In this document: in pieces, positions 41,901 to 61,870 of the stretch
How the letters are laid out: the number at the start of each line of letters is the position of its first letter
Position numbering within the stretch: the first letter of the stretch is position 1
Assembly: GCF_018069625.1 (NCBI RefSeq)
Contig: NZ_CP072941.1
Location: forward strand, 1,736,001-1,800,000
Direction: 5' to 3'
From: Streptomyces yatensis
GTDB taxonomy: Bacteria > Actinomycetota > Actinomycetes > Streptomycetales > Streptomycetaceae
DNA length: 64,000 nt
Notes under the pieces: model-generated
What the model saw: the letters and a program-made list of their open reading frames with translations, nothing else
Database searches by the model: none
What the model was told of the DNA's origin: nothing
Made by a program: the position numbers and the translations under genes

Positions 41901-43286
41901 GTGGGGGCCTGTGACCTTCCCCTGATGAACCACGTCTGCGGGGCTGTCAGCGGCGTGGTCGGCAAGACCGGCGAGGCCATCACCGACGGCATCGGCGCCT
42001 GGATCGCCAAGTCAATGGGCGAGGTCGCCCAGTCCGCCGCCGACCTGGCCACCAGGGCTGTGGACAAGACCACCGCCGTCGACTTGAACGCCGAGTGGTT
42101 TCGGCACAACTACGAGCTGATCCTCCCGATCGGGCTGGTGCTCACGGTGGGTACGTTCTGCCTCCAGCTCACCCGCGCCGCCTGGCGGCGGGACGAACGA
42201 GCCCTCGTGCAAGCGGCCTTCGGGACGATGACCGGCGTCTTCTTCGCCTTCGCCGCCATTGCCTGCACGACCGTCGCCCTCACCGTCACCGACGCGTTGA
42301 GCGCGGGCCTGTTCAAGGCCGCGAACTCCTCGGTCGACGACGCGATCCGCCGCGTGATCAAGGTCAACGATCTGGGGACGATGTACGGCCTGGGCTGGGG
42401 TATCCCCGCGATCGTCGCGCTGGGCTGCGCGGTCGGCGCGTTCTTGTACTGGGCGGTCATGGTCGCCCGCAAGGTCGGGATCCTGGTCTTGGTGACCTTG
42501 GCCGTGTTCGCCGGTGCCGGCGGGGGCTGGGAGGCCGCCAGGCGCTGGCGGCGCGGATGGATCGAGGCCACTGCCTCGCTGATCGTTAGCAAGCTGCTCA
42601 TGACGATTGTCTTCCTCCTCGGTGTTTCCGCCATGGGCAAGTCCGACTCCCACGGCGGCATCGGCGCCCTCTCGGACGCGATGGCGGGCATCGTCGTGAT
42701 GGTCCTGGTTCTGCTCTGCCCCTACGCCACCTACCGGTTCGTGCACTGGGCCTCCGACGGAGGCGGACACGACGACCTGCACCGCACCGGCGTGGCCGGC
42801 GTCGGCACGGCGGCTGGTGCGGCGAGGAGCGCAGGCCAGCTGGCGATGCAGGCCAGGATGGGTGGGATTGCACCGCAGGGGCCGTCGAAGGTGCCGGGCC
42901 AGGGTGCCGGGGGCATGGCCTCGGGGATCGATCCGACCGGCGGCGGCTCCGGCAGCGGCGGTGAGGAGTCGAAGCCGACTCACTTTCGCTTCGGTGAGGA
43001 TCCGAACGCCCGAGGCGACAAGGGCCAGGCGCTGATCCGCCGTCCGCCGACCGGAGGTGGCCGAGGCCAATCCCTCATCCGCCGCCCCGGCCAGGAATCC
43101 GGCAGCAGCCCCGATGCGGCACCGCTCTCCTCCGGACCGACACCCGAAGGAGCCACCGGCGGTGCGGCGCAGCGCTACTCGGCCAGTCGCAGCAGTTCAC
43201 CTACGGGGAGCGGCTCTTCGCCGCAGGGCGGCGCCACACCACAGCGGTGGGTCTACCCCGACGAGTCCAAAGGGCCGGGTCCCTGA
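41901..43286 (+). CDS. VirB6/TrbL-like conjugal membrane channel protein
   Basis: A 461-residue protein. Six or so membrane helices lie between about residues 65 and 275 (including IGLVLTVGTFCLQLTR, GVFFAFAAIACTTVALTV and VGILVLVTLAVFAGAGGGWEAARRW). A long Gly/Ser/Pro/Gln-rich cytoplasmic tail follows (about 300-461), with repeated LIRRP motifs. This is the VirB6/TrbL pattern of the inner-membrane channel. GTG 41901 has AAGGAGGTG five bases upstream, the strongest SD in the region. Confidence 0.78.
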   Translation: MGACDLPLMNHVCGAVSGVVGKTGEAITDGIGAWIAKSMGEVAQSAADLATRAVDKTTAVDLNAEWFRHNYELILPIGLVLTVGTFCLQLTRAAWRRDERALVQAAFGTMTGVFFAFAAIACTTVALTVTDALSAGLFKAANSSVDDAIRRVIKVNDLGTMYGLGWGIPAIVALGCAVGAFLYWAVMVARKVGILVLVTLAVFAGAGGGWEAARRWRRGWIEATASLIVSKLLMTIVFLLGVSAMGKSDSHGGIGALSDAMAGIVVMVLVLLCPYATYRFVHWASDGGGHDDLHRTGVAGVGTAAGAARSAGQLAMQARMGGIAPQGPSKVPGQGAGGMASGIDPTGGGSGSGGEESKPTHFRFGEDPNARGDKGQALIRRPPTGGGRGQSLIRRPGQESGSSPDAAPLSSGPTPEGATGGAAQRYSASRSSSPTGSGSSPQGGATPQRWVYPDESKGPGP

Positions 43287-43373
43287 CCCAGCATCCCCTG
43301 GGGGCCGGACTCCGGCCCGTCCTCAGGTCCTTCTTTTCTAGCCCCTCTTTCACGTCCATAGGACAGCTTCGCC

Positions 43374-44843
43374 ATGACTTCCGAACCCTCCACTCCCATC
43401 GACCCGGCCACCGTGAGGTTCCCCCACCGCACACGCCGTGGCCTCTTGATGGGCCTGTCAGCTCCGCAGTTGATCGCTGTGTCGGCGACCGGACTGCTGC
43501 TGTTCGCGGTGCTGCTGATGTCCGGCGTCGTCGGAGTGCTGAAGCTGATACCGGTCTGGGCCGTGCTGCTGATAATGGCCTTCCTCCAGCACCGGGGACG
43601 CTCCCTCGCCGACTGGACGCCCATCGCACTGCGCTATGCCCTGCGCCGCACGGCAGGCCAGCTGCTGTGGCTCACCCGCCCATCGACCCGCCCACGCCGG
43701 GAGGGTCTGCTGCACCTGCCGGGAACAGCGGCGTCACTGCGGATAGTCTCCTTCCCCGATGGACACCTCGGTGCGGTCCACGACCCGCATCGGGCCACTC
43801 TCACCGCAGTCGTGCGTGTCTCCGCACGCGCATTCGCACTGCTGGACCCGGCGGCTCAGTCGGCGAACGTGGCCAGCTGGGGCCGCACCCTGGCCGCGCT
43901 CGCCCGTACCGGGCACATCGCTCGGATTCAGGTGCTGGAGCGGACCGTCCCCGATTCCGGTGATGCGCTCAACCGGTACTGGAGGGAACACGGCAACGTC
44001 GAAGCGTCGCTGTCCGGTCAGGTGTACCGGGATCTGATCGACGCCGCCGGTCCGGCTGCCGCTCCGCACGAGGCGTACGTCGCCCTCGCCCTCGATATGA
44101 AAACAGCACGCCGGCTGATCAACCAGGCCGGAGGCGGGCTGACCGGTGCCTTCGCTGTCCTTGCACAGCTGACCTCCGCCTTCGACGAGGCCGCACGGAA
44201 CTTCGGCCTTGCCCCGGGATCGTGGCTGGCGGGGGATGAGATCGCCGCAGTGATCCGCGCGGCCTATGACCCGGGCTCCTCGGCCGCGCTCGATCAGTGG
44301 TCGGACACCGGCCGCCCCCAGGCCGACCCGGCTGCCGCGGGGCCGGTGGTGCTGGTGGAAAGGAGCGATCGCATCGCGACCGACTCCGCGCACCACGCTA
44401 CGTACTGGATCGAGAACTGGCCCCGGGTCGAGACCAGCCCCGGCTTCCTGCACCGGCTGCTGTTCGTCTCCGGCGTGCGCCGCTCGCTTTCCCTCATCTA
44501 CACCCCCAAGGGCCTGGATGCCGCGCTCAAGGACGTACGGCGCAAGAAGGCCAGCGTCATCGCGGACGCCGCCGAACGCGCCCGCAAGGGCCAGGTCCAC
44601 TCCGAAGCGGACTCAGTGGAGTACACCGACATCACGGACCGCGAACGCCAACTGATCACCGGCCACGCCGACGTCGCCCTCACCGGCCTGCTGACCGTCT
44701 CCGCCGAAACGGACCAGGAGCTGAACTCCGCCTGCGCGTCGATCGAGGCCGCCGCCGTCTCCGCCATGACCGATCTACGGCGCCTGACCTGGCAGCAGGC
44801 CGAAGCCTTCACCACGGCCGCCCTCCCCCTCGCCCGCATCTGA
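43374..44843 (+). CDS. SCO6880-family (PrgI-like) conjugation protein
   Basis: A 489-residue protein. Two N-terminal helices (about residues 28-67) are followed by a large soluble region with VRFPHRTRRGLLMGLSAPQL at the start, WPRVETSPGFLHRLLF and SLSLIYTPKGLDAALKDVRRKKASVIADAAERARKGQ. The N-terminal pair resembles PrgI/TcpE-type membrane parts fused to a VirB4-like N-domain. SCO6880-type proteins occur before the VirB4 ATPase in actinobacterial ICEs, as here. No P-loop is present, so it may be a scaffold for the ATPase. Confidence 0.78.
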   Translation: MTSEPSTPIDPATVRFPHRTRRGLLMGLSAPQLIAVSATGLLLFAVLLMSGVVGVLKLIPVWAVLLIMAFLQHRGRSLADWTPIALRYALRRTAGQLLWLTRPSTRPRREGLLHLPGTAASLRIVSFPDGHLGAVHDPHRATLTAVVRVSARAFALLDPAAQSANVASWGRTLAALARTGHIARIQVLERTVPDSGDALNRYWREHGNVEASLSGQVYRDLIDAAGPAAAPHEAYVALALDMKTARRLINQAGGGLTGAFAVLAQLTSAFDEAARNFGLAPGSWLAGDEIAAVIRAAYDPGSSAALDQWSDTGRPQADPAAAGPVVLVERSDRIATDSAHHATYWIENWPRVETSPGFLHRLLFVSGVRRSLSLIYTPKGLDAALKDVRRKKASVIADAAERARKGQVHSEADSVEYTDITDRERQLITGHADVALTGLLTVSAETDQELNSACASIEAAAVSAMTDLRRLTWQQAEAFTTAALPLARI

Positions 44844-44864
44844 CCCACCCGATCGAAGGCAACC

Positions 44865-45326
44865 ATGCCGACCGACCTTCCGCCCGAACCCGACCAGCTG
44901 GACTCGGGCTTCGTGCCGTTCGCAACCGCCGCGCTCGACTTCCACCGCTCCCTCAACCTGCCCGCCGCCCAGGCCGCGGCGAGCCGTGTGGAGATCGACG
45001 CCCTGCATGCCCACGTGATCGCTCTGTACCGGCTGCTCGACTCCCACACCGGCCGCACCGGGCCGGTAGCCCAGGCTGAAGGTGACCACCTGCAAGCTGG
45101 GAGGGTCCGGCTGTGGCAAGCGGCCGAGCACCTGCACGACGCCTTCCACGCCGCCCCGCGCCCCGATGCCCGCCACCCGGGCCGAGAGCCATGGCGAGAA
45201 CCGCTGCCCGAGGGCGCACCCGAACTCACCATCTGCCAACGCCACCTGGTCATCGCAGTCCGGGTGCGCCGCGGCCACACGCCGACCGACCTCCACGACC
45301 CCGTAACCGGCGTTGTCCGCCACTGA
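44865..45326 (+). CDS. DUF6238-like protein of conjugation module
   Basis: A 153-residue soluble protein with FVPFATAALDFHRSLNL, EIDALHAHVIALYRLLDSHTGRTGPVAQAEGDHLQAGRVRLWQAAEHLHDAF and LTICQRHLVIAVRVRR. It matches the helical DUF6238 family found in Streptomyces ICEs. Function unknown. It sits between the PrgI-like and VirB4 genes, 21 bp after the former. Confidence 0.7.
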   Translation: MPTDLPPEPDQLDSGFVPFATAALDFHRSLNLPAAQAAASRVEIDALHAHVIALYRLLDSHTGRTGPVAQAEGDHLQAGRVRLWQAAEHLHDAFHAAPRPDARHPGREPWREPLPEGAPELTICQRHLVIAVRVRRGHTPTDLHDPVTGVVRH

Positions 45327-45352
45327 CCGATTCACCAGGAGCACCACCGAGC

Positions 45353-46861
45353 ATGGCTCGCACCACTCGCACCCGCGCCACCGCCAGCCCGCTGTACACG
45401 CCGAGCAGGATCGACCGCCGCTCGCGCCGCGCGGCCCGCGAGCAGTTCACGACCGCACGCAAGCAAGCCAGGGACGCCTCCCCTACTCCCATGCGGCTTA
45501 CTGGCTCCAGCATGGACCTGGGCCTGCGGGCCACCTACCCCTCGAGCGGGCGCCCCGGCCCGACCTCCGCCCGCGGCGGCAGCCTCAAGCTCCCGCCGCA
45601 CCGCATGACAACGGCTGTCGCGGCCGGCGCATACCCCTTCCTCGCCGAAGGCGGACTCGGTGCCCAGGGAATCTACGTCGGACACGACGTCCACGCAGAA
45701 GGCGCCTTCACCTACGACCCGTTCGCTCTCTACGGGCGCCTCGACGGCTTCACCAACCCCAACATCCTGCTCGCGGGGATCATCGGCATGGGCAAGTCAG
45801 CCCTGGCCAAGTCCCTCGGGGTGCGTGCCGTCGCCTTCGGCTACCGCATCTACGTGCCCTGCGACCCCAAGGGCGAGTGGTCCATCGTCGCCAGCGCACT
45901 GGGCGGCCAAACCATCGCCCTCGGGCCCGGCCTTACCGGCAGGCTGAATCCTCTCGATGCGCCGGCCCGGCCGCGTGGCGTCGACGAGGGAGACTGGCGT
46001 ACCGAGGTCCGCAAGCGACGCCTGCTCCTGCTCGGCTCGCTGGCGAAGACGGTGCTGCGGCGCGAGCTGCACCCCATGGAGCACACCGCGCTCGACGTCG
46101 CCCTGGACCAAGTCGTCGCCCGTGCCGAGGCCAGCGGAACCACGCCCCTGCTCGGCGAAATCGCTCAAGTCCTCGGCTTCCCCGAGCAACTCGACTCTGC
46201 GGTGGGTGAGATGCCCGGGCGCCTGGTGCATGCCGCCGGAGACCTCGCGCACGCCCTGCGGCGCCTGGTTCACGGCGACTTGGCAGGCTTGTTCGACGCT
46301 CCGAGCACCGTCGCCTTCGACCCGGCCGCGCCGATGCTCTCGATCGATCTGTCCCGCCTGGGCGGTGCCGGAGACGACACCGCCCTCGTCCTGGCCATGA
46401 CCTGCGCGAGCGCGTGGATGGAGTCCGCCCTCGCCGATCCGGATGCGGGACAGCGCTGGGTGATCTATGACGAAGCCTGGCGCGTGATGCGGCACGCCGC
46501 GCTGCTGGAGCGCATGCAATCCCAGTGGAAGCTCAGCCGGGGGCTGGGCATCGCCAACGTGATGATCATCCACCGCCTCTCCGACCTGCTGACCGCCGGA
46601 GACGCGGGATCGCGCGGACGAGCTCTGGCCGAAGGACTGCTGACCGACTGCTCCACGCGGATCATCTACCGACAGGAGGCGGACCAACTCGGCGCCGCCG
46701 CAACCCTGCTCGGCCTGACCGGCGTCGAGACGCGAGCGGTCTCCGCCCTTACCAAGGGGCGCGGTCTGTGGAAGGTCGCCGGCCGGTCCTTCGTCACACA
46801 GCACCTGCTGCATCCACGGGAGCGCGAGCTGTTCGACACAGACAGCCGGATGCACGCCTGA
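45353..46861 (+). CDS. VirB4-like T4SS ATPase
   Basis: A 502-residue cytoplasmic motor. Walker A GIIGMGKS is at residues 142-149 and Walker B-like WVIYDEAWRVMR near 365. IIHRLSDLLTAGD and ADQLGAAATLLGL lie in the VirB4/TraC helicase core. The N-terminal 60 residues are basic and disordered, and the standard VirB4 N-domain is replaced by the separate SCO6880-type protein upstream, so the function may be split. It should power pore assembly and substrate transfer. Start ATG 45353; AGGAG lies about 13 bases upstream. Confidence 0.88.
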   Translation: MARTTRTRATASPLYTPSRIDRRSRRAAREQFTTARKQARDASPTPMRLTGSSMDLGLRATYPSSGRPGPTSARGGSLKLPPHRMTTAVAAGAYPFLAEGGLGAQGIYVGHDVHAEGAFTYDPFALYGRLDGFTNPNILLAGIIGMGKSALAKSLGVRAVAFGYRIYVPCDPKGEWSIVASALGGQTIALGPGLTGRLNPLDAPARPRGVDEGDWRTEVRKRRLLLLGSLAKTVLRRELHPMEHTALDVALDQVVARAEASGTTPLLGEIAQVLGFPEQLDSAVGEMPGRLVHAAGDLAHALRRLVHGDLAGLFDAPSTVAFDPAAPMLSIDLSRLGGAGDDTALVLAMTCASAWMESALADPDAGQRWVIYDEAWRVMRHAALLERMQSQWKLSRGLGIANVMIIHRLSDLLTAGDAGSRGRALAEGLLTDCSTRIIYRQEADQLGAAATLLGLTGVETRAVSALTKGRGLWKVAGRSFVTQHLLHPRERELFDTDSRMHA

Positions 46862-48740: not shown

Positions 48741-50537
48741 TTGCCTGACACACGCACCAGGACGCCCTCGACCACCACCGGCACTGACGTCCTGCTCTCT
48801 CTCCTGCTCGGCCTCGCCTCCCTCGGCATCAGCGGCGGCTCACTGGCCTGGCTCTTCGGCAACCTCGCCAATGCCGCTTTCGGCTCCGGTCCATGGGCTG
48901 CGTTCAAGCCGACGCAGTCCCTCTCCCACCCCCACCAGCTCTGGCCGCATCTCCCCCATGCTGCTCTGCTCGTCGGCTGCTACGGCATCCCGGCGCTGCT
49001 CCTGGTCACAGCAACCGCCCTCGGCACGAAGCTGTGGCTGCGCTTGCGCCCGAAGCCGGGCTCACTTGCCAACCAGCGGGACCTGGGCGATCTGCTGCCG
49101 AAGAAGGCAGCGGCGAAGGCCACCGGCCTGCGCTCCAGCCTCAACGAGGCCCACCCCAACGACGTCCCGCCGGACGACCGCGGCGTGCTCCTCGGCACCC
49201 TCAAACCCGGCACGACGGAGGTCCGGTCCTCCTGGGAGGACGTCCTGCTGGCGATCATGGCACCGCGCTCGGGCAAGACCAGCGGACTCGCGATCCCGGC
49301 GATCCTGCGCGCACCGGGGCCGGTGCTGCTGACCTCCAACAAAGCAGCGAACGACGCCTACACCGCGACCCTCGACGAACGAGCGAAGGCCGGGAGGGTG
49401 TGGACGCTGGATCCACAACAGATTGCGCACGCCGAGCAGACCATATGGTGGGACATCCTCGCCGATGCCCGCGACCTTGCCGGGGCCCGACGCCTGGCTC
49501 AGCACTTCGTCGCCGCCTCTGTCGACGAGTCCAGCGCCGGGGACTTCTGGTCCACCGCCGCCGCCAACACACTCACGGCACTCTTTCTGGCCGCCGCGCA
49601 GGGCGCATGCCCCGTGACCGAGGTGACGGCCTGGCTCGCCTCTCCGGCCGACCGCACACCGATCGATCTTCTGACCGATGCCGGCCTCGATGCCGTCGCC
49701 GCCCAGTTGCACGGCACCGTCGCCGGAGCCGTCGAAACACGGGACGGGATCTTCGAGACGGCGAGGCAATACGCGAGCTGTCTGCTGGACCCACGTATCG
49801 CCGACTGGGTCACCCCGCCCCCGCCCGACTCGCCGCTGCGAGAGTTCCGGCCAGAGACGTTCGCCACCTCCCGCGACACGCTCTTCCTGCTCTCCAAGGA
49901 CGGCGGCGGCTCTGCCTCGGCGATCATCGCCGCCGCCGCCGACGCGGTGATGCGCGCGGCCGTCCTCCAGGCCGAGCGCGACGGCGGACGCCTCGACCCG
50001 CCCATGCTGGCGATCCTGGATGAGGCCGCCAACGTGTGCAAGATCCAGGACCTGCCGGACCTGTACTCCCACCTGGGCTCGCGCGGGGTCATCCCGATCA
50101 CGATCCTGCAGTCCTACCGACAGGGCCAGCGGGTGTGGGGCGAGACCGGTATGGACGCCCTGTGGAGCGCAGCGACGATCAAACTCATCGGCAGCGGCAT
50201 CGACGACGCCGACTTCGCCGACAAGCTCTCCCGCCTCGCCGGAGACCACGAGGTGCAGACTCTCTCGGTCTCTACCAGCGCGTCCGGCAAGTCCTCCTCC
50301 GTCTCCATGCGGCAGGAGCGGGTGTTGCCCGCCGATGCGATCCGGGCCCTGCCCAAGGGGTCGGCGTTGCTATTGGCCACCGGGATCCGGCCCGCGCTAC
50401 TCAACTTGAAGCCCTGGTACCGCGAGCCAGATGCCGACCGGCTCGGCGCGGCCTCCAAGAAAGCGACTGCCGCCATCACCGAGCGGGCCCTCGCCAAGGC
50501 CCCGTCCGGCCGCGACCAGTATGGACCGGCCGCATGA
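48741..50537 (+). CDS. VirD4/TraG-type coupling protein
   Basis: A 598-residue T4SS coupling ATPase. Two N-terminal membrane helices lie at about 17-48 and 72-97. Walker A is PRSGKTSG (about residues 175-182), and Walker B-like MLAILDEAANVCK is near 420. The TraM-recognition/TraG region follows with GVIPITILQSYRQGQRVWGE and ALLLATGIRPALLNLKPWY. It brings the relaxosome to the pore. Start TTG 48741 (MPDTRT); no strong SD was seen. It is the signature gene of a conjugation module and differs from the FtsK-like TraB of usual Streptomyces plasmids. Confidence 0.88.
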   Translation: MPDTRTRTPSTTTGTDVLLSLLLGLASLGISGGSLAWLFGNLANAAFGSGPWAAFKPTQSLSHPHQLWPHLPHAALLVGCYGIPALLLVTATALGTKLWLRLRPKPGSLANQRDLGDLLPKKAAAKATGLRSSLNEAHPNDVPPDDRGVLLGTLKPGTTEVRSSWEDVLLAIMAPRSGKTSGLAIPAILRAPGPVLLTSNKAANDAYTATLDERAKAGRVWTLDPQQIAHAEQTIWWDILADARDLAGARRLAQHFVAASVDESSAGDFWSTAAANTLTALFLAAAQGACPVTEVTAWLASPADRTPIDLLTDAGLDAVAAQLHGTVAGAVETRDGIFETARQYASCLLDPRIADWVTPPPPDSPLREFRPETFATSRDTLFLLSKDGGGSASAIIAAAADAVMRAAVLQAERDGGRLDPPMLAILDEAANVCKIQDLPDLYSHLGSRGVIPITILQSYRQGQRVWGETGMDALWSAATIKLIGSGIDDADFADKLSRLAGDHEVQTLSVSTSASGKSSSVSMRQERVLPADAIRALPKGSALLLATGIRPALLNLKPWYREPDADRLGAASKKATAAITERALAKAPSGRDQYGPAA

Positions 50538-52137: not shown

Positions 52138-52347
52138 TCATCTCCGCCACTCTGCGACGTCGTCGACCCCGCTGTCCCCTGGGATGTGTCCGTGCTGCTG
52201 ATAGGGCATCTCATCGGGGTGGCGCTCCAACCGGGTACGCCGCCAGGCCGTGTCGAACGAGAGATTGCCCCCGCTGGCCCGCGCGAGACGCCACGCCCGC
52301 CAGCTGGTCAAAGGCGACAGCAGACATCGCAGCATGGACGTGTTCAC
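52138..52347 (-). CDS. Possible small protein at the end of the NTPase cluster
   Basis: GTG 52347 opens 69 codons with 80% or more G/C in third position (LTSWRAWRLARASGGNLSFDTAWRRTRLERH and a polar end). It follows the 52394 gene by 46 bp in the same direction. The protein is basic and helical, and its family is unknown. It could be a fourth member of the set or a remnant. Confidence 0.45.
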   Translation of the reverse strand: MNTSMLRCLLSPLTSWRAWRLARASGGNLSFDTAWRRTRLERHPDEMPYQQHGHIPGDSGVDDVAEWRR

Positions 52348-52393
52348 TGGCGCACCGTGCTCTCTCGTACGGGACTGGTGCCCGCCGAGCTCC

Positions 52394-53161
52394 TCATGAC
52401 TCACCCGCCGGATCCGCCACGGGATGCCCGTCGAGCAGCGCCTGTGCTTTTGCGGCATGTTGCGGTCGCTGTGCACCGTCCATGCCCGCAGCCAGGAGGG
52501 TGTACAGCATGCGTTTCTGGGCGGGGTCCGGGAAGCTGCCAAGGAACTCGCGCAGCACTTCGACGGCCTCGTGCTCGACGGTCCGTTCGTCGTCGGGACG
52601 GTACTGGGCAAACACCTCCGCGACGTTCCCCGCGTGCTCGACGAGGGTGGAGAGCTTGGCCAAGTCGGCACCGTCGTGTTCGACCCACCGCACCAGCAGG
52701 GCTGCGGGGTGGGCCAGTTCCGCTGCGAGCGCTTCGGTCTTCTGCCGGCGCAGGACATCTGTCACGGCCTGTCGGCGCTGGGCGGTGAGCAGGGCGGCTA
52801 CGGCGGCCCGGTCGTCTGGCAGCAGATCGAGCGTGAGCTTGGCGTGGAACTCGAGGGGCGGGTCGGTCGGCAGCCGGCGCAGTCGGCCGAGATGCTGACC
52901 GCAGACGTCTCGTGCTGAGGCCAGGTCGGCTGGGTCGCACGTCGTGGATGCCTCGGCGGCCGCTCGTCTCAAAGCGGTGCGCACGGCGGTCACGATCTCC
53001 TCGTCGGTACCCGGGTAAGGCGGCTCGGTGAGGACCCTGGCGGTGATCCGGGCGGTGAAGCCGATCCCGGGGGAGGCGCTGCGCAGCCGGACTTCGAAAC
53101 GGGACAGGCCGCGCCGTACAGCTCTGCGTGTGCGGCGGCGCGACCACCATGTGGCGGCCAT
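52394..53161 (-). CDS. Unknown protein of the NTPase cluster
   Basis: A 255-residue protein. A basic start (MAATWWSRRRTRRAVRRGL) is followed by a beta-rich region (about 20-60: FEVRLRSASPGIGFTARITARVL) and helices to the end. The middle (PPLEFHAKLTLDLLPDDRAAVAALLTAQRRQAVTDVLRRQKTEALAAELAHP) has the feel of an SPFH/band-7-like segment; this is a weak resemblance. ATG 53161 lies three bases after the NTPase stop, so it is co-translated with it. No catalytic motif was seen. Confidence 0.7.
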   Translation of the reverse strand: MAATWWSRRRTRRAVRRGLSRFEVRLRSASPGIGFTARITARVLTEPPYPGTDEEIVTAVRTALRRAAAEASTTCDPADLASARDVCGQHLGRLRRLPTDPPLEFHAKLTLDLLPDDRAAVAALLTAQRRQAVTDVLRRQKTEALAAELAHPAALLVRWVEHDGADLAKLSTLVEHAGNVAEVFAQYRPDDERTVEHEAVEVLREFLGSFPDPAQKRMLYTLLAAGMDGAQRPQHAAKAQALLDGHPVADPAGES

Positions 53162-53164
53162 GGA

Positions 53165-55285
53165 TCACGACTCCGCGGTAGTGCGTTCGTGATCGAACCG
53201 CACGGACGACAATGCAGCAGGCAACCTGAGGTCCTTACGCAGTTCGATGACGGCTTCGTCGTTGGCGACGCCGGGTTCGCCGAAGATGAGTGCCGAGATC
53301 GGAGTGGAGTACAGGTGTTCCACAACGACCTGGTTGAGGATCTCCGTCACCAGGTCGTGCGGTACCTGATTCTCCTGTCGTGCCTGGGCCCAGGCAGCCA
53401 GTAGTTCCCGGCACTCAGCGTCGACACGGGTGTCCGTCAGTGCGACGCTCCAACCCTGCACGAGTGCGTTCTTGACGTCCTGCTTCTGCTCGGCCGCGGC
53501 GAGCATGACCTGCAGGACGTAAGGGTCGACGCGGGGATCCAGTAGGGAAACGAACGCCCGGTGTCCTGCTAAGTGCTTTTTTTCGGTGGCCCATTTGATG
53601 ACCGTGCTCCACACCCGCGGCAGTTGGCCTTCGCGGGCGGCGATGTCCCTCAGCGCCGCCCGCGCCGTCCGGACGGCCTCGTCGGGCTCCGGCCGGTCGA
53701 GGATGTGGCGCAGCCGGACGAGTGCCTGGCGCGGATAGTGCTCGGCGAAGTCGCCCTGACAGACCAGGGCGACCACTGTCGCGACCGCCTCCGATGTGTC
53801 CTGCGCCGAGTCCAGCAGCAGCGATCGGACCTCCGCGCCCAACGGGTCCGCCTCGGCGGCGACCGTGAGGACCCGGGCGATCAGTCTGCGGTGTTCGGCG
53901 CTGTTGTCTCCGTTGTCGATCCAGGCGTGGATCTGCTTGATGACCCGGATGTCGTTCTCCGCGACGGCCAGTTCGACCAGGAGATCGCTGATGGCGGCCA
54001 GGCGGTCCGCGCCCGGTTCCTTGGGCGCGGTGATGGTGTCGAGCCACTTCAGCAGGTGCGGGTGGATGTCGGCGCGCTGCTGCCACAGGCGGAGTAGCAC
54101 TGAGCCGGTGTATCCAGGCTTGTGATCGAGGGTGACGGTTCGCCCGGTCACCTTGGCACCCATATTCTCGAGTCGGGTGGTCAGGTCGGGACCGGTCAGG
54201 ATCTTCCGTACGCTCGTCTCCTGCGGCTCGCCCAATAGGGCCCGAGAGCCGTCCTGGATGGTCAGCGCGTCCTTGTTGTTGAGGAACAGAGCCGAGATGA
54301 GCAGGGCTCGGTCATCCGGATTGTCCTCGGTCTTGTTGAAGACCTTCAGCACATCTGAATGCCACTGCTGGAACGTGCCGAGCGCGGTCTTGAGGCTCTC
54401 CGGCGAGTCGTCTGCGTCGGCGAGCACAGCGGCCAGCCGCGCCGCGTCGGCGGGATGACTGCCGTCGGTCAGCAGATGGGAAGCGACACCGATCCCTTCC
54501 GATTCCGAAGGGACTGTGGAGAGCCACCGGACCCGGTCCGGCTGGCCGTGCACGTATTCCAGGTGCCTCTTGGCCACGAGATGCGGGGACGGGCGTGTCG
54601 TCGCGCGGGCGACGACACGGGCCAGGGTTCCGGAGACTGCCTCAGGCCAGCCGTACTCGTCTGCGATCACGACGAGGAATGAGCCCAGATGACGCAGGTC
54701 TTCGGCGTAACGCACCAGCTGCTCGGCGACCTTCGCCGGGCTCTGCCACGAGCCGATCTCTGCGGCCACGTCCAACAGATAGCCGGTGTGCGGATCATCG
54801 GGCAGCTCCGAGGTGTCCGGGGAACGGGGGTCACCCCAGTCCGGCCGGATCTCCTGAAGCCTCAGTTGATCACCGGCGTGCTCCTCCGGTCTGGAAACTT
54901 CCCACAGCGCCCTGATCCCTGCTGTGCGCTTCCCGTACCCGGCCGGACCGGCGACGACCGCGAGCGCAGGCCCGTCCCCGGTGAGACGGTCGATGGCCTT
55001 GCCGGCTGTCCGTACTCTCTCGTTACGTCGGTCCAGGTCTACCCATGCCAGGCGTACAACGCCGAGCTCCGCCTTGGGGATGTCGGCGACGGGCAGCTGC
55101 GGCTTGCTCGTCATAGTGACAGGGCCCGCGGCCATGATGATCTTCGAATTCTGGTTGCCGCTCGCGTTCATCCAGGGGCCGGGCGGCGCAGTCGGGACGA
55201 GTGGGAAAGTCGGCGGCGCGGGCGGGACGGTGGGAGGAACGGATGGCGCGGGCGGAACGGCGCCGGGAGCAGTCTCTTCGCTCAC
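53165..55285 (-). CDS. Large P-loop NTPase with altered Walker A, STAND-like
   Basis: A 706-residue protein. A Pro-rich start (1-38) leads to a short beta motif NASGNQNSKIIMAAGPVTM (40-58). The P-loop GPAGYGKRT at 113-121 has Arg where Ser/Thr is normal, and a Walker B-like LVVIADE is near 210. Long helical repeats run to the C-terminus (LLVELAVAENDIRVIKQIHAWIDNGD, ALVRLRHILDRPEPDEAVRT). It resembles STAND-type signalling ATPases of immune systems in layout, with a C-terminal repeat sensor. Start GTG 55285 overlaps the partner's stop by four bases (GTGA). Confidence 0.75.
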   Translation of the reverse strand: MSEETAPGAVPPAPSVPPTVPPAPPTFPLVPTAPPGPWMNASGNQNSKIIMAAGPVTMTSKPQLPVADIPKAELGVVRLAWVDLDRRNERVRTAGKAIDRLTGDGPALAVVAGPAGYGKRTAGIRALWEVSRPEEHAGDQLRLQEIRPDWGDPRSPDTSELPDDPHTGYLLDVAAEIGSWQSPAKVAEQLVRYAEDLRHLGSFLVVIADEYGWPEAVSGTLARVVARATTRPSPHLVAKRHLEYVHGQPDRVRWLSTVPSESEGIGVASHLLTDGSHPADAARLAAVLADADDSPESLKTALGTFQQWHSDVLKVFNKTEDNPDDRALLISALFLNNKDALTIQDGSRALLGEPQETSVRKILTGPDLTTRLENMGAKVTGRTVTLDHKPGYTGSVLLRLWQQRADIHPHLLKWLDTITAPKEPGADRLAAISDLLVELAVAENDIRVIKQIHAWIDNGDNSAEHRRLIARVLTVAAEADPLGAEVRSLLLDSAQDTSEAVATVVALVCQGDFAEHYPRQALVRLRHILDRPEPDEAVRTARAALRDIAAREGQLPRVWSTVIKWATEKKHLAGHRAFVSLLDPRVDPYVLQVMLAAAEQKQDVKNALVQGWSVALTDTRVDAECRELLAAWAQARQENQVPHDLVTEILNQVVVEHLYSTPISALIFGEPGVANDEAVIELRKDLRLPAALSSVRFDHERTTAES

Positions 55286-55731
55286 CGACCTGCCTCCGGG
55301 GTCCGGTAGTGGAAGCCACCGGAGGCGCTGATAGCGCCGCCCGCGATGACGACCTGACTGTTGGTGTTGTTGTGCGCGCTCATGCGTACGTCGGAGGCGC
55401 CGTCCGCCCGCTGGACCCGGTCCGCCAGCTCTTGCAGCTCCGCGGCCGCATCCGGATGCTTCTGCAGGAATGCCGCCAGCTGGATCATGAGGTCGTTGCG
55501 CAGCCGCTCTTCGACCGGACCGCGCTCGCTCTCCGTGCTCTCCACCAGCCGCTGACGCGCCGCGTCGATCAGACGCAGCTCCTGCTCGGCGGTTCCCTCG
55601 CCACCCCTTCTGAAGAACTGGGCCACAGCGTCGCGCACAGAATCCCAGGTGTTTTTGGCCATTTCAGTGACGAGAGCGGCGGCTCCCACGCTGGCCAGCT
55701 GCGTGATTTCCAATGCATCCCCCACGATCAT
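55282..55731 (-). CDS. Small helical partner of the NTPase with shared beta motif
   Basis: A 149-residue protein. Residues 1-110 are helical (ALVTEMAKNTWDSVRDAVAQFFRRGGEGTAEQELRLIDAARQRLVES), with an N-terminal hydrophobic part. The end carries NNTNSQVVIAGGAISASGG at 121-139, clearly similar to the NTPase motif at 43-58 of its partner. I chose ATG 55731 because AGGAG stands three to four bases upstream; ATG 55752 gives seven more residues. It is the first gene of the cluster, with an AT-rich upstream spacer. Function unknown. Confidence 0.72.
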   Translation of the reverse strand: MIVGDALEITQLASVGAAALVTEMAKNTWDSVRDAVAQFFRRGGEGTAEQELRLIDAARQRLVESTESERGPVEERLRNDLMIQLAAFLQKHPDAAAELQELADRVQRADGASDVRMSAHNNTNSQVVIAGGAISASGGFHYRTPEAGR

Positions 55732-56467: not shown

Positions 56468-57689
56468 TCAGCCGACGGGACGGGGCAGTGCGGCGAGGCG
56501 ATGGAATGCTGTGGCGAGTTCGTGTCTCCAGGGCCAGGTCGCCGATATCCGCAAGCGCAGACGCCGACCGCCGCGGGTAAGGCGTGCGGCGACGTGCAGC
56601 AGCCGGTAGCGGAGCTTCTTCGGCTCGGAAGAGGCGAGTTCACCGTCCAGCAGCAGGACACGCATCCAGGCCAGCAGGTCGATCGCTGCAAGGCTGAGTT
56701 CGAGCCAGGCGGCGTTGATATTGAAGTCGCGGGAGGGGAAGTGGCCGAAGCCGGTGGTCTTACCGCACCGGATGTGGTCCTCGACGCGTGCATGGCCGCG
56801 GTGACGAACCTCCCTGGTCAAACAGGGACAACTGGGCTCCTGGGTGCGGCCTCTCCCGGCGCACGATGACGCGGGTGCCGACCGGATAGCCGTCCAGGTC
56901 GACTATGCCAGTCAGTTCGGCGACCTCGGCCCCGGCGCGCACTGTCCCGTCCTGGTCCAGGGCAGGATGCCAGAGTCGGTCCGGCATGGCTCGGACAGCG
57001 CGTCGGACCGGCTCGGTGATGGCGTATCCGACCGAGAAGAAGGTACGGATTCCTCGTTTGCGCAGGTCGCGGACGTGAGCGAGGAAGGCTTTTGCCGAAC
57101 CGGCGCCGTCGGTGCGGATGAGGATGTCGGTGCCGTGCCGGTGGGCGTCGGGGATCTGCCCGAGCGCCTGGTCGAGCACCGTGATGTGGTCGCTCGCGGT
57201 GTTGGCACCGGCATTCCCGGGCCGCAGCCGGCCGGACAGTGCCTCGCCGGTGTTAGCGAGGAAGCACAGCAGCGGGTGGAACCCGAATCCGCCCTTGTAG
57301 GTGGGTGCGGCCTGCGCTTTCTCTGAGTGGCAGGCGATCAGCGTGGCATCGAGGTCCAGGACCAGACCGGGCAGCAAGCGCCCCGCGGTGCGGACTGCGG
57401 GTATGCCCTCACCATGTTCGGCGGCCTGCAGCCAGGCGACTTCCCGGGCCTGGGCGCGAGCAGAGGACAGCCAGGCGAGGGCGGTCTCGTCGACGTCGGC
57501 GAGCAGCCGCCAGGCCGTCGGTGCCGAGGCGACAGGGCCGAAGACTGCTGCCTGGTCCCGTAGCACGGCCAGGTCCGCAATGGCCTCACCGCCGTCGGCG
57601 AGCATCACCCCCAGGTCGGTGGCGACCCGGCCGGGGTGATGTCCGGTCCCGCGCGGCCGAAGTGGTCTGAGAACGTGTTTCTGAACCAA
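56468..57689 (-). pseudogene. IS1380-family transposase, 5' truncated with internal deletion
   Basis: The frame from 57689 carries FGPVASAPTAWRLLADVD, DLDATLIACHSEKAQAAPTYKGGFGFHPLL, RTDGAGSAKAFLAH and TRVIVRRERPHPGAQLSLFDQ: the main catalytic part of an IS1380 transposase. At about 56840-56850 it breaks, and another frame resumes with VRHRGHARVEDHIRCGKTTGFGHFPSRDFNINAAWLELSLAAIDLLAW. The linking segment (about 20-25 residues) is missing and the frame is lost. The N-terminal DNA-binding part is also absent. The element cannot move on its own. Confidence 0.85.
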
Positions 57690-57834: not shown

Positions 57835-59187
57835 ATGCAGTCGCCTACCGGGGACAACGCCCAATCCACCGCGAGAAGCGGCTTACAGGCCGGCTCCGGC
57901 CTGCCGTTCGACCGTCGCGTGGTGATCCTCCTCGAGATCGCCGACGACCCTAACGAGATAGCTCTAGCCGAGGAGCTGTTCGACCACCGCGGGTGGCCGG
58001 CGCGTCCTGCGGAGGAACCCGAACGGGTCGGCTGCCCGCCCGAGCGTGTCGCTCGCGTGGTGGAGGTCCGGCTGACCGGGGCGCGGGAGGGTGCTGTCGA
58101 GCGGGCACTCGGCCTGGTCGACCGGCTCGCGGTGGCGGCCTCGCTGAACATGTGGGCTCGGGATGCCGTTCTCCTGGAGCACGAACCGGAGCGGTACACG
58201 GCTTGGCGGGTGAGCCCCGCTGTCGGTGTCCCACAGCCCGGTCGGGTAGTCCGGACGGTCGAGCCCCGTGGCCGGGCAGGCGCGCTCGCCGACCTGCGCG
58301 CCCGGGAGTTGGCCGGCCATGTGCACGCCTCCGACGTTGACCTCCATCCCGCCGACGAGCCGTCCATCGCAGTTAGGGGCAACGTCCTTTCGGTCAACAT
58401 CGGAAACGCGGTGGCCTTTTTGGCCGTTGTCTTGGCAGCCATCGCGCACACCGGCTGGCAGCTCACTGGATGGTTCATCACCATGCTGTTCGGTCTGCCC
58501 TGGTTGATCTGGGGTCTCCGCTACGCGCTGCGAGATTCCCCTGCGCGGCGGACCACCCTGTGGGCCCTGCCTTTGGCTTCGCCTCTCCTGCTGCCGCTCG
58601 TGACCTGGGGCGGCGGGCTGGTTCAGGACCGCTACATAGGCTCGTTCGGCATACCGTCCGATTCGGTGCACGCGGGCACGCTCGACCGCCTGTGGGCAGG
58701 AGCCTTGCTGGTGGGCGCGATGCTCTACTGCGTGGCGCTCAGGGTCGCGGCGTATGGCTGGAACCGGCGGTTCCATGCGAATCCCGATGCCTGGGATCTG
58801 GCGAAGGCCGCCGGCGCAGTGGGTGAGGGACTCATCGTCGGCATAGCCCTCACCGTGATGCTGTCTTACCTTCACGAAGGCGCCTTCGTGGAGGCCCGGA
58901 ACGCCGCAGTGCACCTCCATGAGCCTCCGCCCTACTACGGCCTGCGCCCTGTCCTGGTCTGTGTCCAGCCCGTCACACACGTGGCCCACCCCGAACGCGG
59001 CTTTCCCGGTGCCTCCTACGGGGGCACCGTGCCCCTCACCTACCCAGTGCTCACGTTCGGTCCCGACGCCGACCGCATCTGGCTCTGGGACCCCCGGTCC
59101 GGAAGCACCTTCAACATGAGTCTCGATGACGCCACGTTCGAGCCCTTCGACCCTGACTTCGCGGGCAAGGACCGCCCATGCGGCTGA
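57835..59187 (+). CDS. Unknown four-helix membrane protein
   Basis: A 450-residue protein. A soluble N-terminal 185 residues (DRRVVILLEIADDPNEIALAEELFDHRGWP; VARVVEVRLTGAREGAVERALGLVDRLAVAA, ferredoxin-like in pattern) leads to membrane helices at about 193-230, 250-265, 280-310 and 328-350. A soluble C-terminus follows, ending in GSTFNMSLDDATFEPFDPDFAG. Not recognised. ATG 57835 follows AAGG by about 9 bp; GTG 57826 is an alternative. The gene has no close neighbours in its direction. Confidence 0.65.
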   Translation: MQSPTGDNAQSTARSGLQAGSGLPFDRRVVILLEIADDPNEIALAEELFDHRGWPARPAEEPERVGCPPERVARVVEVRLTGAREGAVERALGLVDRLAVAASLNMWARDAVLLEHEPERYTAWRVSPAVGVPQPGRVVRTVEPRGRAGALADLRARELAGHVHASDVDLHPADEPSIAVRGNVLSVNIGNAVAFLAVVLAAIAHTGWQLTGWFITMLFGLPWLIWGLRYALRDSPARRTTLWALPLASPLLLPLVTWGGGLVQDRYIGSFGIPSDSVHAGTLDRLWAGALLVGAMLYCVALRVAAYGWNRRFHANPDAWDLAKAAGAVGEGLIVGIALTVMLSYLHEGAFVEARNAAVHLHEPPPYYGLRPVLVCVQPVTHVAHPERGFPGASYGGTVPLTYPVLTFGPDADRIWLWDPRSGSTFNMSLDDATFEPFDPDFAGKDRPCG

Positions 59188-60187: not shown

Positions 60188-61870
60188 TCAGCCTGCGGGG
60201 TGGGTGGCGACGCGCCAGGACCGGGGCCGGGGGATGTGCTGCCAGTCGAGGAAGCCCTGGAGAGCGGTTGGGTTCCGGGGCTGCCGGGCGGATGTCGGCA
60301 GCAGGTGGACGGCGATGCGTTCGAGGTTGACCGCGATGGCGGTCAGAACGTGCTGGACGTGGGCCTTCTCTTCGCTGCGGTAGCGGCACTGGCGCATGCC
60401 GTGGCCGTTGACGAACTCGCTGATCGTGCTCTCGATGGCGGCCCGCAGTGAGTAGCGCGAGAGCCATTCCTGGGTCTGCTGCTCGGTCCGGGACTCGGAC
60501 TGGATGTCGTAGAGCTCGCGCGGCAGGAAGGTGACCTTCCGGGCGTCGGTGCGCGTGCAGGCGGCCTTCACCGGGCACTGGCGGCAGTCGTCCGGGGAGA
60601 ACTCGACATTGATGTAGGGCGCGAGGGACGGCGGTGTCGACCACCGGCGGCTCACCTTGTCCTGCGGACAGCTCACCTCTTTGGCATCCCAGTCGATGGC
60701 GAAGGCGTCGCGGTGGAACACGGTGCCCTTGCGGGACTGCCGGGTGCTCTTGGCCCGGACCGGTCCGACCAGGCCGACACCGTGCTCGCGGGCAACCCGC
60801 TGCTTGAGCGCGACGGAGAGGTAGCCGCCATCGACGAAGTGCTCCTTCGACAGCAGGTTCCTTTGATCGAGGCTGGCCATGATGCCGGGAAGGGCCTTGG
60901 TGTCGTGGACGGCGGCCTTGGTGGTGGTCACGTCGGTGATCACGCTCGGAGCATCGGGGTCACAGGTCTCGGTGACGTGCGCCAGGAAGCCCTTCCAGCG
61001 GGTCTCGCCGCGGCGCGCGTAGCGGGCACTCACGTCGTAGGGCGAGACGATGGCGACGGCCGAGGGTGGCAGGCCGGCGCCCTCTGCCTCCCGCCACTTC
61101 GGGCGGTCCTGGGCGTCGATGAAGTAGTTCTGCACGAAGATCTGGCGAAGAGCCTGGACCTGCTCACCGTCGCGGAGGGCGGGCAGGTAGCGGTGGACGT
61201 AGCGCAGGAGCAGACGGACGTCCTCGCCGGTGTCCTTGATCCGGGTCTTGGGCTTGGAGGGGTTCTTCCCCAGTCGGGCCGCGCGGCCGTAGCGCTTGCC
61301 CCAGTCCTCTGTCACCAGACCGACCAGCTCGTGCGGCGCCCGGCGGGCGAGTTCCTCCAGGGTGGCGCGCATCGCCTCGGTGACCAGTTCCAGGCGGGTC
61401 AGGTCCCGCACCGCGGCCAGGACGTGGGTGGAGTCGGTGCGCTGTAGGCCGCGTTCCCGGACCAGCCCGACGGCCCTGATCTTCTCCAGCGCGAGGTCCA
61501 GCAGCTTGTCGGCCCGGCCCTCCTCGGCCAGGCGCTCACGGAAGTCCGCGAGAACGCTGTGGTGGAAGCCGGGGTCCTCCAGCTCCATGCCCATCGCATA
61601 TTTGAAGTCGATGCGGTTCCGCACCGACTCGGCGGCCTGCCGGTCGGACAGCTCCAGCAGGAACTGCAGGACCGACACAGTCGCCAACTGGGCAGGTGAC
61701 AGGCCCGGCTTGCCGTCCCGCGGATACCACTCCTCGAAGTCCTCGTCGCTCCACAGGCCGTTGAGATGGTCACGGATGGCCATAGCCGTGGTGCCCCTGG
61801 GGTTGCTCGCACGAGCGACTCGCACCGTCAGCTCGGGAATCACGCAGCCGGTACGGGGGCGAACACACAT
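60188..61870 (-). CDS. IS1182-family transposase
   Basis: A 560-residue transposase. The N-terminal region (LWSDEDFEEWYPRDGKPGLSPAQLATVSVLQFLLELSDRQAAESVRNRIDFKYAMGMEL) is the family's DUF772-like domain. The core is an RNase-H fold with LQRTDSTHVLAAV, EHFVDGGYLSVALKQR, and a zinc-type CRQCPVKAACTRTDARKVTF. RYSLRAAIESTISEF has the catalytic Glu. The start ATG 61870 (GGAGG seven bases upstream) is chosen over the longer frame from 62011. No break was seen, so it should be functional. Confidence 0.88.
   Translation of the reverse strand: MCVRPRTGCVIPELTVRVARASNPRGTTAMAIRDHLNGLWSDEDFEEWYPRDGKPGLSPAQLATVSVLQFLLELSDRQAAESVRNRIDFKYAMGMELEDPGFHHSVLADFRERLAEEGRADKLLDLALEKIRAVGLVRERGLQRTDSTHVLAAVRDLTRLELVTEAMRATLEELARRAPHELVGLVTEDWGKRYGRAARLGKNPSKPKTRIKDTGEDVRLLLRYVHRYLPALRDGEQVQALRQIFVQNYFIDAQDRPKWREAEGAGLPPSAVAIVSPYDVSARYARRGETRWKGFLAHVTETCDPDAPSVITDVTTTKAAVHDTKALPGIMASLDQRNLLSKEHFVDGGYLSVALKQRVAREHGVGLVGPVRAKSTRQSRKGTVFHRDAFAIDWDAKEVSCPQDKVSRRWSTPPSLAPYINVEFSPDDCRQCPVKAACTRTDARKVTFLPRELYDIQSESRTEQQTQEWLSRYSLRAAIESTISEFVNGHGMRQCRYRSEEKAHVQHVLTAIAVNLERIAVHLLPTSARQPRNPTALQGFLDWQHIPRPRSWRVATHPAG

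Follow-up and report, generated by a model that had tools for sequence, protein, structure and literature searches.

Gene order and matched motifs of the p1-p4 operon

Which task do four closely packed genes, p1 to p4, serve in Streptomyces yatensis, and what links their products? The genes lie on the minus strand of a 64,000-nucleotide stretch (contig NZ_CP072941.1, positions 1,736,001 to 1,800,000; hereafter the window). On balance we lean towards reading them as a motif-templated signalling operon of the NOD-like receptor (NLR) type, similar to the BASS/BELL amyloid signalosomes, probably acting in defence or regulated cell death and with p1 as its output. At the level of sequence, related loci show a kept gene order, an exchangeable partner gene 5' of p2, a p3 family 3' of it, and termini that match in an operon-specific manner. 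The operon comprises the following features, p2 resembling the signal transduction ATPases with numerous domains (STAND).

55282..55731, minus strand: p1, open reading frame (ORF) of 149 aa with a C-terminal motif; candidate output or adaptor protein in a BELL-like layout
55327..55383, minus strand: C-terminal motif of p1 (residues 117-135), aligning to the N-terminal motif of p2
53165..55285, minus strand: p2, 706 aa, STAND-like, GTG start
55115..55171, minus strand: N-terminal motif of p2 (residues 39-57), from the p1-p2 alignment
54923..54949, minus strand: degenerate Walker A GPAGYGKRT of p2 (residues 113-121), from family alignments
54770..54781, minus strand: probable Walker B YLLD of p2 (residues 169-172), from position and context
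52394..53161, minus strand: p3, 255 aa, fold not assigned; its family sits 3' of p2 in most relatives
52138..52347, minus strand: p4, 69 aa, GTG start; closes the module and is conserved

The initial annotation had pointed to a motif common to the C-terminus of p1 and the N-terminus of p2, and this likeness goes beyond chance. Residues 117-135 of p1 (MSAHNNTNSQVVIAGGAIS) align to residues 39-57 of p2 (MNASGNQNSKIIMAAGPVT) with a local score of 45, a value that no shuffled p1 C-terminus attained in 5000 trials. Since only 34 of 57 nucleotides are identical across the motif, it does not stem from a recent duplication of the DNA.

Paired motifs were found in other genomes, too, by a neighbourhood comparison as proposed with the initial annotation. 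The neighbour scan covered 119 records (the window, L007-L024, L065-L144 and L155-L174), which were picked for relatives of p2 and include near-copies (L016/L017, L019/L082). Genes were taken from a simple codon-usage caller, which often overlooked p4, and p2 in at least L021, L065, L066, L068, L093 and L159. Loci with a p2 of at least 500 aa were tabulated (113 rows), and the pair tests used 111 rows with a same-strand upstream gene within 600 bp, two rows being short p2 pieces. The C-terminus of the partner matched the N-terminus of its own p2 at shuffle p<=0.01 in 64 of these 111 operons (62 in a repeat), compared to 0 to 5 in four controls: p2 C-terminus against p3 N-terminus (0/106), upstream N-terminus against p2 N-terminus (4/111), p3 C-terminus against p2 N-terminus (0/106) and a partner from an operon of another type (5/111). 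With one representative per p2 cluster the mean score was 47 within and 28 between operons (permutation p ~1e-4), and the own partner ranked first in 30% of the 54 representatives (expected 1.9%). By type, p<=0.01 was reached by 14 of 24 p1, 17 of 32 cyclase, 30 of 39 TIR and 3 of 14 other operons, and by neither of the two short rows.

The motifs vary widely between operons and match within them, e.g. GPVNTGRGHQY/GPVNNGEGHQY in TIR types and SHTGEHGIQAYN/SHSGEHGIQAYN in cyclase types. Several are long and rich in Gly and Asn (e.g. L173, L171). Some distant p1/p2 pairs in the same operon position contain a RHIM-like (I/V)Q(I/V)G core on both sides, namely VIQIG/NIQVG in L037 and VIQVG/VVQVG in L068/L039 (one locus); in L036 the core VQIG faces a looser AQIG in p2, and L067, L069 and L071 (3/111 rows) are also RHIM-like if T is allowed first and A third or last. 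The RHIM-like form is thus rare, and the motif of the window has another form. The initial annotation had left open whether p1 and p2 bind the same ligand or each other. Because matched partner motifs recur while their sequences differ between operons, binding to each other is favoured and a shared ligand less so.

Comparison with bacterial amyloid signalosomes

NLR amyloid signalosomes of filamentous bacteria, built on BASS and BELL, were reportedly described by Dyrka et al. 2020. They consist of adjacent genes; the NLR carries the motif N-terminally, and a small helical effector, whose place a TIR protein sometimes takes, carries it C-terminally (PMC7889193). BELL is described with a transmembrane helix. 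Neighbouring NLR and effector genes whose terminal motifs match have been described before (PMC7889193, PMC8086366, PMC12261475, PMC9815663), and RHIM and PP motifs, with which BASS3 is connected, are assigned an (I/V)Q(I/V)G-type core (PMC7885112).

The window operon and its relatives agree with these descriptions in their adjacent and overlapping genes (4-bp overlap of p1 and p2, order kept in L007-L024), in an NLR-like protein with an N-terminal motif next to a small partner with a matching C-terminal one (0/5000 shuffles and the family-wide controls), in TIR proteins that sometimes take the BELL place, and in their occurrence in actinobacteria. In contrast to what is described for BASS/BELL, there are two extra conserved genes, p3 and p4, the family has a degenerate P-loop, and class III cyclase-like proteins form one of the major classes of partner. 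In the window motif the RHIM core of some distant pairs is missing. Compared with BELL, p1 is a small protein with an N-terminal hydrophobic stretch but a maximal mean hydropathy of 1.32. Because the layout is the one published for bacterial amyloid signalosomes, a motif-mediated coupling of p1 and p2 is likely; amyloid templating of the two motifs appears plausible.

In the mechanism we propose, p2 would be a STAND/NLR-like receptor whose C-terminal half senses an invader or stress. Nucleotide binding by the degenerate P-loop, rather than turnover, might hold or release its state. Activated p2 would cluster, and its N-terminal motif, then exposed, would serve as a template on which the C-terminal motif of p1 adopts an identical strand fold, in the manner of BASS/RHIM-type amyloid signalling. 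Thereby the N-terminal domain of p1 would be oligomerised and exert its effect on the cell, with the membrane as the most likely site, and the spread of phages or plasmids would be stopped through growth arrest or death. p3 and p4 could be scaffold or regulatory subunits.

Alternatively, the matched termini might be ordinary docking strands or interfaces of a hetero-oligomer, with p1 and p2 in a stable complex that shares a beta-strand or beta-helix and signals allosterically, not as amyloid. Co-variation of the termini shows pairing and not polymerisation, and the long Gly/Asn-rich motifs (L173, L171) are unlike the short BASS. However, the two sides are alike (homotypic), as templating predicts, and not merely complementary, and the RHIM-like core stands on both sides in distant pairs. 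We regard simple docking as rather unlikely, although it fares best among the alternatives.

Exchangeable partners of p2 in related operons

In the 113 loci the gene directly 5' of p2 encodes a TIR protein (39), a class III cyclase-like protein (32), p1 alone (24) or another protein (14), with none called in four; the classes were assigned with profiles built from these same loci. On the 3' side we found the p3 family in 92 loci, an 'alt' family in ten, an 'spf' family in three, something else in three and no called gene in five. In L072, counted as cyclase-like, the cyclase-like domain is fused to p1, which thus connects this domain and the motif. Two of the 39 TIR proteins were run against Pfam (L076, TIR_2 at 2.4e-9, over the cut-off; L081, 1.4e-5, just under it), and the other 37 were classed by clustering with them; L076 also shows a weak match to ThsB (1.1e-5). 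The profile of 24 cyclase-like proteins matches the solved cyclases 3mr7 (2.5e-8) and Ma1120, and two Asp positions are invariant. Nine 'other' loci of one cluster encode small proteins with a p1-like layout, as judged by eye from three of them. In some 'other' loci, L125 and L133 for example, the upstream gene is a different kind of neighbour.

Regulator and p3 form change with the partner. The long form of p3 occurs in all 39 TIR-type loci, and its N-terminus is strongly hydrophobic in 37/39 TIR-type, 2/32 cyclase-type and 0/22 p1-type loci; in TIR-type operons it is probably inserted in the membrane. The second upstream gene is CRP-like in 27/32 cyclase-type and XRE-like in 33/39 TIR-type loci; neither regulator was found in p1-type loci, six of which have a second gene within reach. 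'XRE-like' is a label given by eye to the gene of L076, and 'CRP-like' refers to the Pfam match of the L069 gene and similarity to it. Furthermore, a p1-like gene occurs as an extra downstream gene in 5/39 TIR-type loci.

In a quick and unrooted p2 tree with long branches (a root served for drawing only), the TIR loci stand together on a weak branch (SH-aLRT 21), and all 24 p1 loci fall within one group of 29 rows (98) that includes three cyclase loci. The fusion locus L072 is the sister of L070, which has p1 alone. Because the tree places the window type among cyclase types and because of the L072 fusion, p1-only operons may be cyclase-free descendants of cyclase-type operons, a direction which we infer.

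More tentatively, and with somewhat less confidence than in the signalosome reading of the window operon itself, we suggest an undescribed and widespread class of actinomycete conflict systems. It would combine a constant core (a STAND protein with degenerate P-loop and p3, often p4), operon-specific self-matching motifs and interchangeable outputs (TIR, class III cyclase or p1). A change of output would go along with a change of regulator (XRE-like, CRP-like or none) and of the membrane anchoring of p3; the p1 type of the window would be a prion-like death switch, free of cyclase, derived from cyclase-type operons. TIR, cyclase-like and p1 outputs would thereby be placed on one receptor family, and two conserved components, p3 and p4, be added. 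As many natural motif pairs wire related STAND scaffolds to different outputs, one could test directly how specific and exchangeable the motifs are and whether an active P-loop is needed, in a field that seems to consist mainly of motif prediction and a few tested motifs.

It is also conceivable that p1 is an inhibitor or adaptor and that the real effector is p3, probably membrane-anchored in TIR types, or p4. p3 is the most constant partner of p2 (92/113) and has a hydrophobic N-terminus in nearly all TIR types, p1-like genes appear as extras downstream, and in L072 p1 has the place of a connector. The matched motif, however, is carried by p1 and not by p3 (0/106 for the p3 C-terminus), and we consider this explanation improbable.

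Other conflict systems resemble the operons in part. In Thoeris (TIR protein ThsB) and Pycsar (cyclase) the TIR protein or cyclase is the signal-making enzyme. Related operons share a TIR or cyclase-like protein with these systems, whereas the window copy has neither enzyme and the STAND protein is the core. The iSTAND/iSTAND2 MoxR-vWA ternary conflict systems likewise combine STAND proteins with eroded NTP-binding motifs, cyclase or TIR partners and adaptor-like domains in multicellular bacteria, but in our operons the link is a short terminal motif and not a globular effector-associated domain (EAD) (PMC7159879, PMC8195603). The MoxR-vWA pair that marks iSTAND was absent from the recurrent neighbours (TIR, cyclase-like, p1, p3, p4, CRP-like, XRE-like), not every neighbour being annotated. 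The two-gene system EACC1 of actinobacteria also joins a small constant protein to a variable partner, but no caspase partner is among our recurrent genes and p1, p3 and p4 stay below every Pfam cut-off (PMC7159879).

The initial annotation had called the system a candidate new one. None of p1-p4 reaches the cut-off of any family, housekeeping or other, in Pfam or NCBIfam, PADLOC-DB gave no family at E<=1, and neither Pfam, NCBIfam nor PADLOC assigns the putative NTPase to a known housekeeping family. No description of a p1-p2-p3-p4 operon, or of cyclase-STAND or TIR-STAND operons, was found in open-licence literature, which is no claim of absence from print. The word 'new' needs care because adjacent NLR and effector genes with matched terminal motifs have already been published.

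As an observation of its own, L125, L127, L128 and L133 contain two STAND genes of the p2 family near each other. In L127 and L128 a 75-aa gene lies between them, whose motif matches the N-terminus of the second STAND protein.

p2, a STAND-like protein with a degenerate P-loop

Judged by its alignments, p2 is a member of a large actinomycete STAND-like family with a degenerate Walker A. The motif GPAGYGKRT has Arg at the Ser/Thr position, as the initial annotation had stated, and so departs from an intact GxxxxGK[ST]. K119 and R120 are near-invariant (>=90%) in an alignment of 38 sequences, and the family motif is roughly GxxGxG[K/R]R[T/A]. Arg occupies position 119 in 74 of the 113 p2 members and position 120 in 64; Lys119 is found in 23, mainly in the p1-type branch of the window (21/24), and one paralogue in the same genome (L079) has a canonical GKT. 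The alteration is thus a family-wide trait and wider than first noted. Since Lys is also replaced in most relatives, the NTPase activity assumed initially seems doubtful. The Walker B candidate D172, assigned by position and context, is Asp in 92/113 members.

The proposed STAND nature holds for the family: nSTAND3 is matched by 8 of 53 members (best 3.5e-6), weak nSTAND3, nSTAND5 and AAA_16 matches are spread across it, and the TIR-type relative in the same genome passes the curated nSTAND3 cut-off (PF20720, 28.3 vs 27.2 bits). p2 itself does not. For the repeat-like C-terminus there are weak HEAT-like matches (ERAP1_C in 2/53 members, best 0.0025), which do not establish repeats. A match of p2 to MlrA (0.0011; 18.4 bits, the cut-off being 417) was taken as chance. 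PDB sequence searches with p2 and p3 gave no informative relative, the best for the p2 family being the designed phosphate-loop protein 6c2u (0.0059).

p1, p3 and p4 and the conservation of the operon

The junctions of 4 bp and 3 bp between the minus-strand genes agree with the coordinates. The TGA of p1 (55282-55284) and the GTG start of p2 (55283-55285) overlap by 4 bp, read as GTGA, 3 bp separate the end of p2 (53165) from the start of p3 (53161), and a gap of 46 bp lies between the p3 stop and the p4 start. An alternative ATG of p2 at 55171 would give 668 aa, near the length of many homologues. The 206-aa ATG ORF listed at 52138-52758 is the p4 frame extended upstream. The fourth gene, initially given as possible, is real: p4 homologues follow p3 in 16/18 loci with ratios of nonsynonymous to synonymous substitution rates (dN/dS) of 0.16-0.20.

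The order p1-p2-p3 was kept in 18 of 19 fetched genome loci (L007-L024; the 19th, L025, is a fragment), so these genes do occur together elsewhere. p4 was present in 16 of the 18 and not found in L013 and L022; it also stands beside distant p2 homologues (L036-L041, L057). p1 homologues lie 5' of p2 homologues throughout L007-L024, with L011 partial at a contig edge and L014 carrying an in-frame stop; L016 and L017 are identical copies on one chromosome. The p1-type operon of L024 is complete except that p2 was called as two ORFs about 600 bp apart. Comparing the window with five relatives gave dN/dS values of 0.15-0.26 for p1, 0.16-0.24 for p2, 0.21-0.30 for p3 and 0.16-0.20 for p4, and all four genes therefore encode proteins under purifying selection.

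The helical nature ascribed to p1 was not established; it is a judgement by eye, with an amphipathic stretch at residues 24-41. Searching the host genome with the last 45 residues of p1 gave p1, two paralogues and one chance-level match only, and therefore no extra partner with the window motif was seen. p3 and p4 are, by the family searches, two conserved components without a recognised domain. HHalign links the p3 groups to each other (core-mid 99.3%, mid-TM 99.0%, core-TM 92.4%). An SPFH/band-7 fold of p3, suggested by eye, was rejected: the three groups scored <1% against a Band_7 profile, a small yardstick of four sequences, and Band_7 in Pfam matched none of 19 p3 family members scanned. 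A DUF3459 match in one of these 19 (0.0028, under the cut-off) was taken as chance.

A p2 protein search gave at least 110 homologues among the best 7992 candidates scored, from Streptomyces or Kitasatospora where organisms are named. A profile of 38 relatives has matches at E<=1e-3 in 83 of 295 Streptomyces genomes, the weakest not individually checked; close window-type p2 (>900 bits) occurs in 5/295, host included. A wider profile gave long matches in other actinomycete families and many short ones that are P-loops only. Chromosome-size contigs carry several of the close copies (L015, L016/L017, L030, L033). p2 had no match in the phage collection, no viral contig matched in a search for close relatives only, and six records of the plasmid collection had distant p2 matches, none covering 80%.

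Genomic surroundings and possible role

The operon was said to lie between conjugation genes and insertion sequences, and Pfam agrees: its neighbours are a coupling protein gene and a gene with a DnaB N-domain at one end and transposase genes at the opposite end.

48741-50537: conjugation coupling protein gene, Pfam TraG-D_C at 6.6e-32
56760-57605: transposase gene, Pfam
60188-61783: transposase gene, Pfam

Some p1-type copies have defence genes as neighbours, namely IetA (1.7e-69) and IetS (2.4e-33) in L077, an OLD/GajA-like gene in L078, GmrSD/HEC-05 in L010 and type IIG with TmtA in L020. Together with the TIR and cyclase-like partners of relatives they point, on circumstantial grounds, to defence or regulated cell death as the most probable role, and to this extent the defence role of the initial annotation is retained. 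A regulatory or maintenance module of a conjugative element or of hyphal development would fit the adjoining coupling protein and transposase genes and the CRP-like or XRE-like regulators that precede the cyclase and TIR types, but is quite unlikely given the pairing of p2 with TIR proteins in relatives, the p1-type copies near IetAS, OLD/GajA-like, GmrSD and type IIG genes, the close copies on chromosome-size contigs, the lack of matches in the phage collection and only six distant ones on plasmids.

Several observations weigh against the motif-templated signalosome that we prefer. 47-49 of the 111 operons (~44%) have no significant motif match, including those p1-class operons beyond the 14/24 at p<=0.01, and an (I/V)Q(I/V)G core is missing from the window motif. 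The most hydrophobic 19-residue segment of p1 averages 1.32 (Kyte-Doolittle), below the usual transmembrane level of ~1.6. In Pfam p2 itself has no NB-ARC, NACHT or nSTAND3 match at E<=1 and misses every cut-off, with nSTAND5 (0.047) and AAA_16 (0.24) below theirs. None of five cyclase-like proteins scanned singly matched a Pfam cyclase family. The neighbours tested for defence genes (10 of 30 listed, picked by eye, without a background rate) comprise six with matches to defence models, one to TPR models only and three to none. Finally, p3 and p4 have no firm task in the scheme, which was built from sequence.

Further copies and neighbouring genes

Two further copies of the p1-type operon are present in the host genome. 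One, close to the left end of the chromosome (L079, G000:C1:69000-86000), has all of p1 to p4, with p3 split over two frames, and a NACHT-domain gene about 4 kb away; the other, close to the right end (L080, G000:C1:10345000-10360357), has decayed. A TIR-type relative at 8.26 Mb (L081, G000:C1:8251600-8264400) has the order XRE-like, TIR, STAND, p3 with hydrophobic N-terminus, p1-like. In the window, a predicted 450-aa protein without a Pfam family at E<=0.001 is encoded between the two transposase genes (57835-59187). The genes before the coupling protein (41901-46861), with weak EccE-like or no Pfam matches, are probably parts of a conjugation apparatus.

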